From Halobacterium jilantaiense (GTDB taxonomy: Archaea; Halobacteriota; Halobacteria; Halobacteriales; Halobacteriaceae): 64,000 bases of DNA. Shown piece by piece: positions 15,119-27,394 of the stretch (positions within the stretch are counted from its first letter, which is position 1; the number at the start of each line of letters is the position of its first letter). A model generated the notes under the pieces. The model saw only the letters and a program-made list of their open reading frames with translations. It was not told the origin of the DNA and searched no databases. The translations under genes were made by a program, and so were the position numbers. The stretch lies in the NCBI RefSeq assembly GCF_900110535.1, contig NZ_FOJA01000001.1, forward strand, positions 186,001 to 250,000, given 5' to 3'.

Positions 15119-16246
15119 CTACCGGCGCGCGAACAGAGCGGCACCGAGCACGGCGACGACGCCCGTGGCGACGCCGAAGCCGGGCGCGGAGCCACCGGAG
15201 GAGCCGTCACCGCCGTCGGTCGTCGTGGCGGCGGCCGTGGTGGCGGTCTCGGTCTGGGTCGTCGGTTCGGCGGTCGTCGCCGTGGTCGTCGTGTTGGCCT
15301 CGGCGTACGCGTCGGGGTGGAACGCCTGCGCCATCTGCGTCATCGGTTCGACGACCCGGGGGGCGGGCTGATTGATGTGGTTGACGTTCACCGCGACGAT
15401 GTTGCCCTCCTCGTAGGCAGTCGTGTTCCGGACGACGGAGTCCGCGCCGATGAGTTCGGACTTGTCGGCGTTCATCTGCGCGGCGGGCACGCCGACGACG
15501 ACGTGCTCGGGGTCCTGCTCGGCGACGAACTCCTCGGACGGCTGCGGGTACGGTTTGCTGAAGTTCCCGTCAGCGGCGATGTTGTGGCCGCCCGCCGTGT
15601 CGATCATCGAGCCGATGAAGGTGCTCGGGCCGGCGGTGTAGCCGCCACCGAGGGCGTAGTAGACGCTCGGGCGCTCCTGCCCGTCGACGGCCTGCCGGAT
15701 GGTGTCGACGCGGTCGCGCATGTCCGAGACGGTGGTTTCGGCGGCGTCGCACGCGCCGACGAGCCTGCCGATAGTCTCGGTCTTCTCGTAGACGGCGTCC
15801 AGGGAGTTCGCGAACTGGAAGCGGTAGACCGTGACGCCGGCGTCACGGAGCTGGGTGACGGAGTCGTTGTCGATGGTGTTCGGCGCGAGCACGAGGTCGG
15901 GTTCGAGCGAGATGACCTGCTCGGCGTTCACCTGTGAGGGGCTCCCGGAGGTGACGACCTCGCGGTCGCCGGCGTCCTCGAGGTAGCCGGCGAACTGGGA
16001 GACGCCGACGACTTTCTCGCGCGCGTCGAGTTCCCACATGGTCTGGGCGGCGCTCGGGTTCAGCGTGACGACGCGCTCGGGTTCGGCGTCGACGGTGACG
16101 TTAGCGTCGCTGGCGTCGGTCATCGTGACGGGGAACTCGCAGGACGGGTCTTCCTGAGCGGCCGGTGCGTCGAACGCGCCGGCTGCGGGGACTGTGGCAC
16201 TCAGAACCAGTAGAACGACTCCGAGTACGATTGCGGGTCTGCGCAT
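15119..16246 (-). CDS. btuF: Corrinoid ABC transporter substrate-binding protein, PGF-CTERM anchored
   Basis: This 375-aa protein starts at the ATG at 16246 (MRRPAIVLGVVLL), preceded by the divergent control region; the open frame upstream is the antisense of btuC. A Sec-type signal peptide (about 1-25) leads into a BtuF/FepB-like helical-backbone domain (ERVVTLNPSAAQTMWEL, SLEPDLVLAPNTI, YALGGGYTAGPSTFIG). A Thr-rich linker and a tail with the PGF motif (APGFGVATG), a helix and two Arg follow, indicating archaeosortase processing and lipid anchoring rather than a lipobox. It is divergent from btuC. In Halobacterium the homologous BtuCDF set salvages cobinamide, but iron chelates cannot be excluded. 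Confidence 0.82.
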   Translation of the reverse strand: MRRPAIVLGVVLLVLSATVPAAGAFDAPAAQEDPSCEFPVTMTDASDANVTVDAEPERVVTLNPSAAQTMWELDAREKVVGVSQFAGYLEDAGDREVVTSGSPSQVNAEQVISLEPDLVLAPNTIDNDSVTQLRDAGVTVYRFQFANSLDAVYEKTETIGRLVGACDAAETTVSDMRDRVDTIRQAVDGQERPSVYYALGGGYTAGPSTFIGSMIDTAGGHNIAADGNFSKPYPQPSEEFVAEQDPEHVVVGVPAAQMNADKSELIGADSVVRNTTAYEEGNIVAVNVNHINQPAPRVVEPMTQMAQAFHPDAYAEANTTTTATTAEPTTQTETATTAAATTTDGGDGSSGGSAPGFGVATGVVAVLGAALFARR

Positions 16247-16270
16247 GTGTGGTAGAGGCCAGTAGCGCAA

Positions 16271-16293
16271 TAAATATTTGGCTAAACCAAATA
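16271..16293. promoter_or_regulatory. Divergent btuF/btuC promoter with palindromic operator
   Basis: The 60-bp gap holds a self-complementary TATA-like box (TAAATATTT, 16271-16279). It is usable in both directions: about 28 nt before the btuF ATG (leaderless) and about 30 nt before the btuC ATG at 16307. Overlapping it is a perfect inverted repeat, TATTTGG and CCAAATA around a 5-nt centre (16275-16293). Its position over the btuC TATA region is what a repressor operator would occupy. Confidence 0.55.
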
Positions 16294-16306
16294 GGATTGA
16301 CCAACA

Positions 16307-17410
16307 ATGAGCGTCTACACCAGGGCGACGGTCTGGACCGTGGCGTCGGCCGGGCTGCTCGTCGCCGTCGCCCTGGTGAGCGCCACCATCGGTCACGCCT
16401 CCATCTCGCTGCCGGAGGTCGCGCTCGCCGCTCTCGACGTGTTCGCCGTTCCCTCCTCGGTCTCGGTCGCGTTCCGCGACCACGCCGTCCCCGCGCTCGG
16501 CGGCGTCCCCTGGCCCGCGTTCGATGTCGGCTACACGTCGCCGCTGCACTTCGCCGTCCCCGACACCAAGCAGTACATCGTCGGGCAACTCCGCCTCCCC
16601 CGCATCGTGCTCGGCGCGACCGTCGGTGCCTCGCTCGCCATCTCGGGGGCCGTCATGCAGGGGTTCTTCCGGAATCCGATGGCAGACCCCTCCATCGTCG
16701 GCGTCTCCTCGGGTGCCGCCGTCGGCGCTGTCGCCGCCATCACGGCCCCCACGGTCGTCACCATCGGCATCCAGCCCGCCGCCTTCGTCGGCGCGCTCGT
16801 CGCCGCGTTCACCGTCTACCTCGTCGCCACCGAGAACGGCCGCACGCCCGTCGCCACGCTGCTGCTCGCGGGCGTCGCCGTCCAGACGCTGCTCGGCGCG
16901 TTCACCTCCTTTCTCATCGTGAACTCCGGCCGGGAGATTCGGGAGGCGATGTACTGGATGATGGGGAACCTCCACGGCAGCCGCTGGCACGAGGCCGAGG
17001 CCGCGCTCCCGGTCGTCGTCCTCGGCAGCCTCGCCCTGCTCGCGTACGCCCGTGACATGAACGTCCTGCTGGCCGGCGAGGAGGACGCCCACACGCTCGG
17101 CGTCGAGGTCGAACGCACCAAGCGCCTCCTCCTGGCGGTCGCCAGCGTCGTCACCGCCGCGGCCGTCTCGTTCGCGGGCGCAATCGGCTTCGTCGGGCTC
17201 ATCGTCCCGCACGGCGTCCGCCTCGTCGTCGGCCCCGACCACCGCGTCCTGCTGCCCGTCAGCGCCTTCGTCGGCGGCGCGTTCCTCGTCGCCGCCGACA
17301 CCATCGCCCGGTCGGGCGCGGGGAACCTCCCGGTCGGCATCGTCACCGCGTTCGTCGGCGCGCCCTTCTTCCTCTACCTGCTCCGCGACCGGGAGGTGCA
17401 CGCGCTGTGA
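16307..17410 (+). CDS. btuC: Corrinoid ABC transporter permease (FecCD/BtuC family)
   Basis: This 367-aa FecCD-family permease has about ten membrane helices. Family hallmarks: [39 protein letters not shown] (the conserved NPLAxPxxLG-type segment) and a C-terminal cytoplasmic loop [20 protein letters not shown] that docks on the ATPase. An unusual insertion after the first helix (about 45-90) contains [14 protein letters not shown]. It overlaps btuD by 4 nt. With BtuD and the divergent BtuF it makes a complete importer. Confidence 0.88.
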
Positions 17411-18621
17411 CCCTCGACGTCTCCGGCGTCGACGTGTCTCTCGCCGGCACCCGGATTCTGGACGACGTGAGCACGACCGTTCCGGACGGCCGGCTCGTCG
17501 GCGTCGTCGGCCCGAACGGCGCGGGCAAGTCGACGCTGCTGCGCGCGATGAACGGCGTCGTCGACCCCGACGCCGGCACGGTGCTGGTCGACGGCGAGGC
17601 TGTCCACGACCTCTCCTCGAAGGCCGCCAGCCGCCGCATCGCGACCGTTCCGCAGGACACGCACGTCTCCTTCGACTTCACCGTCCGGCAGACCGTCGAG
17701 ATGGGGCGACACCCCCACCAGCCCCGGTTCGGGAGCGACAGCGACCCGGACGCGGTCGACCGCGCGATGGAGCGCGCAGAAGTCGCGCAGTTCGCCGACC
17801 GGGACGTGACCTCGCTGTCCGGCGGCGAGAAACAGCGCGTCCTGCTGGCTCGCGCGCTCGCTCAGGACGCCCCGATCCTGCTGCTGGACGAGCCGACGGC
17901 GAGCCTGGACGTGAACCACCAGGTGCGCACGCTCGAACTCGTCCGGGGGCTCGCCGACAGCGACGACCGGGCCGTCGTCGCCGCCATCCACGACCTCGAC
18001 CTCGCCGCACGGTACTGCGACGAACTCGTGCTGGTCGCCGACGGCGAAGTACTGGACAGCGGCCTGCCCCGGGACGTACTCACACCCGAGGCAATCCGGT
18101 CGGCCTTCGACGCCCGGGTGGCCGTCGGCACCGACCCGGCGACCGGGTCCCCGACTGTGACACCGCTGCCGGACGCCGACGCCGACCTCGACGCTCGCGT
18201 CCACGTCCTCGGCGGCGGCGACACCGCGACCCCGCTCGTCCGGGAACTGGTCGACGCCGGCGCGGCCGTCTCCGTCGGGCCGGTCGTGGCTGGCGACACC
18301 GACCACGAGACCGCCGAGCGATTCGGCCTCGACTGCGTCACCGTCGACCCGTTCGGGCCGCCGGGTGACGAAGCGGACGCCCGGGCCCGCGAGCACGTCG
18401 CGGCCGCGGACGCCGTCGTCGTGGCCGCCGACGCCGCCGACTGGGGCGCGAACGCGAGTCTCCGGAGCGCGGCCGAACGCGCCGTCGTCGTCGGTGAGAC
18501 GGCCCTCGGCGACGCGGGCACCGCCAGCACTCGGGTCGCGACGGGCGACGTGGCGGACGCGGTCGCCGCGCTCGACGACGCCGGGGGGCGACCCGCAGTC
18601 GCGGACGGCGGCAGCGACTGA
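17407..18621 (+). CDS. btuD: Corrinoid ABC transporter ATPase with C-terminal extension
   Basis: This 404-aa protein starts with a GTG at 17407 that overlaps the btuC stop. The ATPase domain (about 1-240) has Walker [10 protein letters not shown] near 35-43, signature [11 protein letters not shown] and Walker [13 protein letters not shown], and resembles FecE/BtuD/HmuV proteins. The extra 160 residues form an alpha/beta region opening with [20 protein letters not shown]. My recollection is that haloarchaeal BtuD is also about 400 aa, so the extension is a lineage feature rather than a local fusion. Its role is unknown; it could sense a ligand or nucleotide. Confidence 0.85.
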
Positions 18622-26611: not shown

Positions 26612-27394
26612 ATGCTCACGTTCGTCGGACTCGGGCTCTACGACGAGCGGTCGGTCACCGTCGAGGGGCGGGACGCCATCGCGGCCGCCGACCGCGCGTT
26701 CGCCGAGTTCTACACCAGCCGCCTCGTCGGGGCCGGCGTCGACGACCTCGAGGACTACCACGACACGACCATCGAGGTCCGCGACCGCGCGGGCGTCGAA
26801 CAGAACCCTGAGCCCATCCTGGACGCCGCCGAGGACGGCGACGCCGTCTTCCTCACGGCCGGGGACACGATGATTTCGACGACGCACGTCGACCTCCGGC
26901 TGCGCGCCGCCGACCGCGGCATCGAGACGCGCGTCGTCCACGCGCCGACCGCCGAGTCCGCCGCGTCGAGCCTGACCGGCCTCCAGAACTACCGGTTCGG
27001 GAAGGCGACGACGCTCCCCTTCGAGTGGGCGCACGGGGCCGACGGCGTCCCGGCCTCGGTCGTCGAGACCGTCGAAGCGAACCGCGAGCGCGGCCTCCAC
27101 ACCCTGGTCTACCTCGACATCAAGGTCGACCACCCGAGCGTCGACGGCGACGCCTACATGACCGCCAGCGAGGCCGCGGGGCTGCTCGCCGAACACTGGG
27201 ACCCGGACGCCCTCGGCGTCGTCGTCGCGCGCGCCGGCGCTCCGGACGCGACCGTGCGCGCCGACCGCCTCGGTGCGCTCGCGGAGTCGGACTTCGGCGA
27301 CCCGCTACACCTGCTCGTGGTGCCGGGCGACCTCCACCACGTCGAGGCGGACGCACTCGCCGGACTCGCGGGCGCGCCCGAAGACGCCCTCTGA
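26612..27394 (+). CDS. dphB: Diphthine synthase
   Basis: This 260-aa SAM-dependent methyltransferase of the tetrapyrrole methylase fold methylates the modified His of elongation factor 2 in diphthamide synthesis. The pattern is clear: MLTFVGLGLYDERSVTVEG at the start, FLTAGDTMISTTHVDLRLRA, and APTAESAASSLTGLQNYRFGKATTLPF. The length and the start at 26612 match the family. It is convergent with trmO. Confidence 0.95.
   Translation: MLTFVGLGLYDERSVTVEGRDAIAAADRAFAEFYTSRLVGAGVDDLEDYHDTTIEVRDRAGVEQNPEPILDAAEDGDAVFLTAGDTMISTTHVDLRLRAADRGIETRVVHAPTAESAASSLTGLQNYRFGKATTLPFEWAHGADGVPASVVETVEANRERGLHTLVYLDIKVDHPSVDGDAYMTASEAAGLLAEHWDPDALGVVVARAGAPDATVRADRLGALAESDFGDPLHLLVVPGDLHHVEADALAGLAGAPEDAL

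Follow-up and report, generated by a model that had tools for sequence, protein, structure and literature searches.

A conserved 32-bp element between btuF and btuC of Halobacterium jilantaiense as putative operator of a haloarchaeal B12 regulon

Bacterial cobalamin riboswitches control btu, cbi/cob and cbtAB genes as well as the B12-independent ribonucleotide reductase (RNR). For some archaea, a CBL-box was reportedly predicted by Rodionov et al. (2003) upstream of B12 genes as the site of a hypothetical B12 regulator. The CBL-box shares with the site described here the notion of a protein site before archaeal B12 genes that replaces the riboswitch, and the element at btuF/btuC of Halobacterium jilantaiense may in part be this known prediction. 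What we describe here comprises a 12-8-12 layout, a broader range of targets and a candidate for the regulator. Logic and targets are common to the bacterial riboswitch and the system considered here, whereas here a putative DNA operator lies over TATA boxes and the leaders are only a few nucleotides long. A search of positions 15900-16700 with Rfam found no cobalamin riboswitch, only a sub-threshold unrelated match. The operators of DtxR, IdeR and SirR are, like the btu site, palindromic and overlap promoters, but the btu element differs from them in conserved bases and in targets. MarR-family repressors have the winged-helix fold in common with our candidate and bind palindromic operators over promoters; the candidate differs by an extra beta domain, a DUF7839 domain and a proposed double operator. 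Transcriptional control of cobalamin genes has been described for a similar organism, Halobacterium salinarum, where the accessible part of PMC3794607 infers from expression dynamics a second regulator of cob/cbi genes acting as an activator, with no protein or site named with certainty in that part. The literature searched names no haloarchaeal B12 regulator or site, and among it we found no paper on DUF7839 and none using the term CBL-box.

The window, the whole 64-kb stretch of DNA that was analyzed (positions 186001-250000 of contig C1 of the 2.95-Mb source genome, labeled G000), has a GC content of about 70%. The genes btuF, btuC and btuD (Table 1) encode BtuCDF, which we take to be the corrinoid transporter of Halobacterium. 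BtuC scores above the NCBIfam equivalog cut-off for vitamin B12 permeases and BtuD slightly below that for corrinoid ATPases. The ABC portion of the 404-residue BtuD reaches to about residue 255 and is followed by a C-terminal extension. Also within the window, at 26612-27280 (C1:212612-213280) and apart from the cbi cluster, is a TP_methylase gene (E 2.4e-20).

Table 1. Features of the btuF/btuC locus, genomic sites of the 32-bp element and the candidate regulator gene of H. jilantaiense. Positions are those of the window unless preceded by C1.
Feature	Position	Strand	Description
btuF	15119..16246	-	start at 16246; PGF-CTERM-anchored Peripla_BP_2 substrate-binding protein (NCBIfam)
btuC	16307..17410	+	vitamin B12 ABC permease; PRK09535 equivalog, 560.8 bits vs cut-off 461
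btuD	17407..18621	+	corrinoid ABC ATPase with C-terminal extension; PRK09536, 534 bits vs cut-off 537 (NCBIfam)
Palindrome TATTTGG-N5-CCAAATA	16275..16293	.	formed where TATA box, spacer and right box overlap; particular to this species
32-bp B12 element CAATAAATATTT-GGCTAAAC-CAAATAGGATTG (12-8-12)	16268..16299	+	0 mismatches to CAANNNNNNTTNNNCTANNNCAANNNNNNTTG, best of six genome sites; kept in 62 aligned intergenic regions
Left box CAATAAATATTT	16268..16279	.	also TATA-like (AATAAATATTT) for btuF (-) and btuC (+), putative, from sequence and column conservation
CTA within 8-bp spacer	16282..16284	+	kept in 62, 61 and 60 of 62 sites at its three positions
Right box CAAATAGGATTG (CAA-N6-TTG)	16288..16299	.	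downstream of TATA towards btuC
Degenerate second element	16202..16233	.	4 mismatches; within codons 5-15 of btuF, at a distance of 66 bp from the first
Genome site	C1:761628		1 mismatch; upstream of methylmalonyl-CoA mutase B12-binding subunit and its GTPase
Genome site	C1:2553571		1 mismatch; between cobT and cbiX
Genome site	C1:2574017		1 mismatch; between cbiT and regulator gene
Genome site	C1:2560078		2 mismatches; between cobN and chlID
Genome site	C1:2569293		2 mismatches; upstream of corrin-ring TP_methylase gene and divergent RDD-family gene
Candidate regulator gene	C1:2574136-2574948		270 aa; winged helix (MarR_2, HTH_24) and DUF7839 (PF25211); beside cbiT

The palindrome TATTTGGCTAAACCAAATA, with the spacer CTAAA, is present between the two genes just as the first-pass annotation had described it. 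It is the sole match at up to 3 mismatches in the window, with 0 expected from 100 shuffles, and lies above chance level there. As a genome-wide motif we rejected the 19-bp dyad, since no second site in the genome has fewer than 3 mismatches; the next best sites, at 3 mismatches, number 11 against 6 for a reversed-pattern control. Across 65 btu loci all seven arm positions pair in H. jilantaiense only, and six of seven pair in four more loci. The dyad as written, which the annotation had taken as the recognition unit, is absent from the btu loci of close relatives. The perfect dyad is peculiar to H. jilantaiense, and the conserved unit is the larger element that surrounds it.

This element consists of two 12-mers of the form CAA-N6-TT(G/T), separated by 8 bp that contain CTA, and overlaps the TATA box of both genes. 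We compared it across haloarchaea, where BtuC was matched in 54 of 59 genomes. These yielded 54 btuC upstream loci, including two duplicates and one genome represented twice, while three genomes with weak or cut BtuC matches contributed none. Together with 13 loci from named haloarchaea the set comprised 67, or 65 after removal of the two duplicates. The pattern CAANNNNNNTTNNNCTANNNCAANNNNNNTTG was matched with 0 mismatches in 34 of the 65 loci, 1 in 21, 2 in eight, 3 in one and 5 in one, counts that describe rather than test it as the pattern was drawn from the same loci. An alignment of 62 sites, which omits the two duplicates and the poorly matching L016, L122 and L132, gives the conserved form CAAYAARTATTTRNCTAANNCAANNNNNNTTG, in which CAA (1-3), CTA (15-17), CAA (21-23) and TTG (30-32) are invariant or nearly so. 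The center of symmetry of the element is at position 16.5 (window 16283.5), half a base off that of the palindrome. Six conserved pairs are complementary about this center compared with three about the palindrome center; as 559 of 20,000 shuffles also reach six, the symmetry is only modestly unlikely and by itself a weak point. The position of AATAAATATTT would suit a btuF transcript that lacks a leader and a btuC transcript with one of about 6 nt, and this putative start geometry fits a TATA-like box serving both genes. The proposal that a single operator could act on btuF and btuC in both directions is supported.

Within the 150 bp preceding the main element, the top-scoring match falls at exactly -66, the position of the second, degenerate copy, in 12 of 13 congeners, with 1-2 mismatches in eight of the 13. 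Its position suggests an operator within the btuF coding sequence, or alternatively conservation of the signal peptide.

In the whole genome of H. jilantaiense six sites have 2 or fewer mismatches and all six are at B12 loci (Table 1), a test that is partly circular because the pattern was shaped with the btu, cobT/cbiX and mutase sites already known. Every further match carries 3 mismatches, and these matches are scattered. With R1, a 38-position profile of the whole btu element, the btu site alone was recovered because this profile includes the TATA sequence, and the simpler pattern was used instead. A shorter, half-element pattern was likewise discarded, as it gave fewer matches than its control (16 versus 38), indicating that only the full architecture is specific; several of its matches fell within the cobalamin cluster.

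These genomic sites bear on whether the element reflects anything beyond the core promoter. Conservation of TATA/BRE and start-site signals, with no specific operator, would account for a left box that coincides with the TATA box, and for the distances, in eight listed loci, of 5-7 nt from the end of the element to the btuC start and of 14-23 nt from its beginning to the btuF start. Yet the right box, the CTA in the spacer and the spacing itself are found again at B12 genes whose TATA is placed differently (cbiT, cobN/chlID and mutase), and within 2 mismatches the genome holds no site outside B12 loci. We regard this explanation as very improbable.

The same data address the first-pass suggestion of a DtxR-family metal-dependent repressor (Idr/SirR-like) that controls an iron-chelate transporter. 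The site is indeed palindromic, AT-rich and placed over TATA, and to the eye it resembles an IdeR-type box. Against this stand the poor conservation of the dyad, a regulon made up of B12 genes, and a permease that passes the B12 cut-off, which also speaks against an iron chelate as substrate. The 32-bp element is not common to iron-uptake genes either: none of its matches with up to 3 mismatches lies at either of the other two FecCD transporters encoded in this genome. Of the 3-mismatch sites of the 19-bp dyad, one lies beside one of these two FecCD loci. We reject the iron/DtxR reading on dyad conservation and target genes, and assign it next to no probability. The palindrome TATTAGGCCGGCCTAAAGA (L136:2655-2673; C1:1579654-1579672) has a substrate-binding gene on one side and a FecCD permease gene on the other and is closer to a DtxR-type box than the btu element is.

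We then extended the search to nine further haloarchaeal genomes from seven genera, counted together with G000 as ten. Of their 34 sites at 1 or fewer mismatches, 32 fall at loci for B12, cobalt transporters or RNR; of the other two, G007 has one at a gene for a YciA-like thioesterase and G044 one at a gene for a NikA-like substrate-binding protein. At up to 2 mismatches, 45 of 67 sites are at B12, cobalt or RNR loci, two at thioesterase, two at NikA-like and 18 at other genes, where the sorting into target kinds is a reading of gene calls and family matches. The targets include cbiX, cobN/chlID, cbiT, cobT, cbtA, cbtB, mutase and the cobO/cbiB region (G001), and among the RNR genes both B12-independent nrdAB (G007, G038) and B12-dependent nrdJ (G048). 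Thus, one cis element is common to B12 transport, B12 synthesis and B12-dependent genes and to little else. The notion that corrinoid control at this locus would be protein-based rather than exerted by a riboswitch gains support from the presence of the element at cob/cbi, mutase, RNR and cobalt-transporter genes, alongside the negative Rfam search. The gene cbiT, found in 24 of 59 genomes, has a CAA-N6-TTG box 37-43 nt before its start in all 24, with TTTT directly after the box. On named plasmids the full element with up to 2 mismatches is found at -62 to -71 of cbiT in all six viewed, out of eight matched.

Several sites adjoin genes with less obvious roles. In two genera (L355:6035-6066 in G007 and L334:1892-1923 in G018) the element precedes, by 31-32 nt, a gene for a YciA-like acyl-CoA thioesterase, which may be an unexpected addition to the B12 regulon. 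The element also precedes similar substrate-binding genes, judged from their sequence to be of the NikA-like (nickel/peptide) type, in two families (L328:1953-1984 in G044 and L344:1893-1924 in G048); they perhaps belong to a cobalt importer. In G029 (contig C2), one site (L341:1954-1985; 2 mismatches), some 720 bp ahead of an RNR small-subunit gene, was left out of the B12 count. A single stretch of G038 (L357:545-6189) holds cobT, the element, nrdA, nrdB and the DUF7839 regulator gene.

Such targets raise the question of the signal. If it were cobalt, or nickel, rather than a corrinoid, the B12 genes would belong to a cobalt-homeostasis regulon, in line with the boxes at the cobalt transporter genes cbtA and cbtB (G048, G058) and before the NikA-like genes. 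The boxes at nrdAB, nrdJ and mutase better match cobalamin status, however, and the winged helix of the candidate regulator resembles metal regulators only weakly, in sequence matches confined to the common DNA-binding fold. A cobalt or nickel signal is therefore improbable in our assessment.

Outside haloarchaea, ten genomes contain seven sites with 1 or fewer mismatches, two of them at B12 genes and both in G066. The family of G066, a distant one represented by four genomes, has 42 distinct sites with up to 2 mismatches. Among 11 of its sites, picked for low mismatch or symmetry and none from G084, seven are at btuF, cbiA or cobT, two flank a ThiC-like gene and two show nothing. The ThiC-like gene, recognized by eye, has elements on both sides in G066 (L381:1501-1532 and L383:1501-1532), and a B12 lower-ligand synthase, a relative of ThiC, would fit.

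A candidate reader of the element is encoded beside cbiT. Its winged helix matches Pfam MarR_2 (PF12802, E 1.8e-7; best structural Z 13.0), and a homolog is found in 58 of 59 haloarchaeal genomes, almost always as a single copy; the family occurs in 47 of 60 genomes of the phylum. A CAA-N6-TTG box is located in the regulator's own promoter in 13 of 13 loci (L163-L175), while most of the more distant orthologs (about 45-55% identity) have no box in front. Three of the six named plasmids carry, divergent from cbiT, a gene whose annotation is MarR family regulator and whose product shares 63-65% identity with the candidate. In G038 the regulator gene follows nrdAB, with cobT and the element 4-5 kb away.

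The AlphaFold2 model of the regulator has a pLDDT of 90.4 overall and 93.8 for the C-terminal part. Among the matches listed, fold searches with the full protein covered the winged helix only. For residues 166-268, searched separately, the best structural alignments are to tetrapyrrole-methylase N-domains and the superfamily they belong to: CysG (Z 10.1, rmsd 3.0 over 97 aligned residues), NirE (9.5), CbiL (9.0) and the isolated domain 3hh1 (9.6). The 50 structural matches listed all belong to this superfamily, although the lack of other folds in either list is no evidence against such folds, and Foldseek gave no match for the domain at E<=0.001. In the model, the DUF7839 domain appears to resemble a tetrapyrrole-methylase N-domain, a likeness of fold rather than of function.

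Another haloarchaeal transcription factor, for example a TrmB-dependent one of those proposed for the cob/cbi genes, might read the operator, with the DUF7839 protein as a mere neighbor. In 40 of 58 genomes no B12 gene lies beside the regulator within the stretch viewed, and in most of these the box is missing; B12 neighbors were likewise not seen in 20 DUF7839 loci of other families. In addition, PMC3794607 names different candidate factors for the cob/cbi genes from network inference. On the other hand, the regulator gene is divergent from cbiT or cobT, or adjoins btuD, in 18 of 58 genomes from several families, a repeated link to three B12 gene sets. The box in its own promoter, the tetrapyrrole-methylase-like domain and the recognition-helix residues T47, Q49 and S52, invariant in 38 orthologs, also favor the DUF7839 protein. 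We consider a different reader possible but unlikely.

Overall, we find it probable that the palindrome is the core of a 32-bp operator of a haloarchaeal B12 regulon, read by the DUF7839 regulator, which would sense a corrinoid or tetrapyrrole and repress when B12 is sufficient. The element, its conservation and its near-exclusive tie to B12 and cobalt genes are direct observations; for the reader, its ligand and the sign of control we infer the following. In the predicted operator, two 12-bp CAA-N6-TTG boxes are arranged in tandem at an interval of 20 bp, both on one face of the DNA, and enclose CTA. The left box at btuF/btuC would double as the TATA box of both promoters, and a protein bound there would compete with TBP/TFB, so that btuF and btuCD are switched together. 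At cbiT the right box abuts a putative TATA-like TTTTA, and in the regulator's promoter the box would lie near the TATA position. The winged-helix regulator encoded beside cbiT may sense its ligand through the C-terminal domain shaped like a tetrapyrrole-methylase N-domain, and sufficient B12 would lead to repression of uptake and synthesis genes. Since a bound protein would block TBP/TFB, repression with plentiful corrinoid is the simplest reading. Simple repression of every target is at odds with a set that contains the B12-dependent mutase and NrdJ as well as the B12-independent NrdAB. Given this mixture, and the activator inferred in PMC3794607, activation at some promoters is possible.

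More tentatively, and with rather more doubt than conviction, the Halobacteriota might possess a protein-based B12 regulon of ancestral origin rather than the riboswitch, with a single-copy winged-helix reader, a sensor recruited from the corrin/tetrapyrrole methylase fold and a double operator able to serve as a TATA box as well. The element provides a precise, conserved putative operator and one candidate protein for archaeal B12 control without a riboswitch, and its target list explains itself: uptake, synthesis, cobalt entry, the choice of RNR and mutase. If the sensor domain is a relative of tetrapyrrole methylases, its origin would be unusual among vitamin sensors, and the regulator would gauge the pathway by means of a domain related to enzymes of that very pathway.
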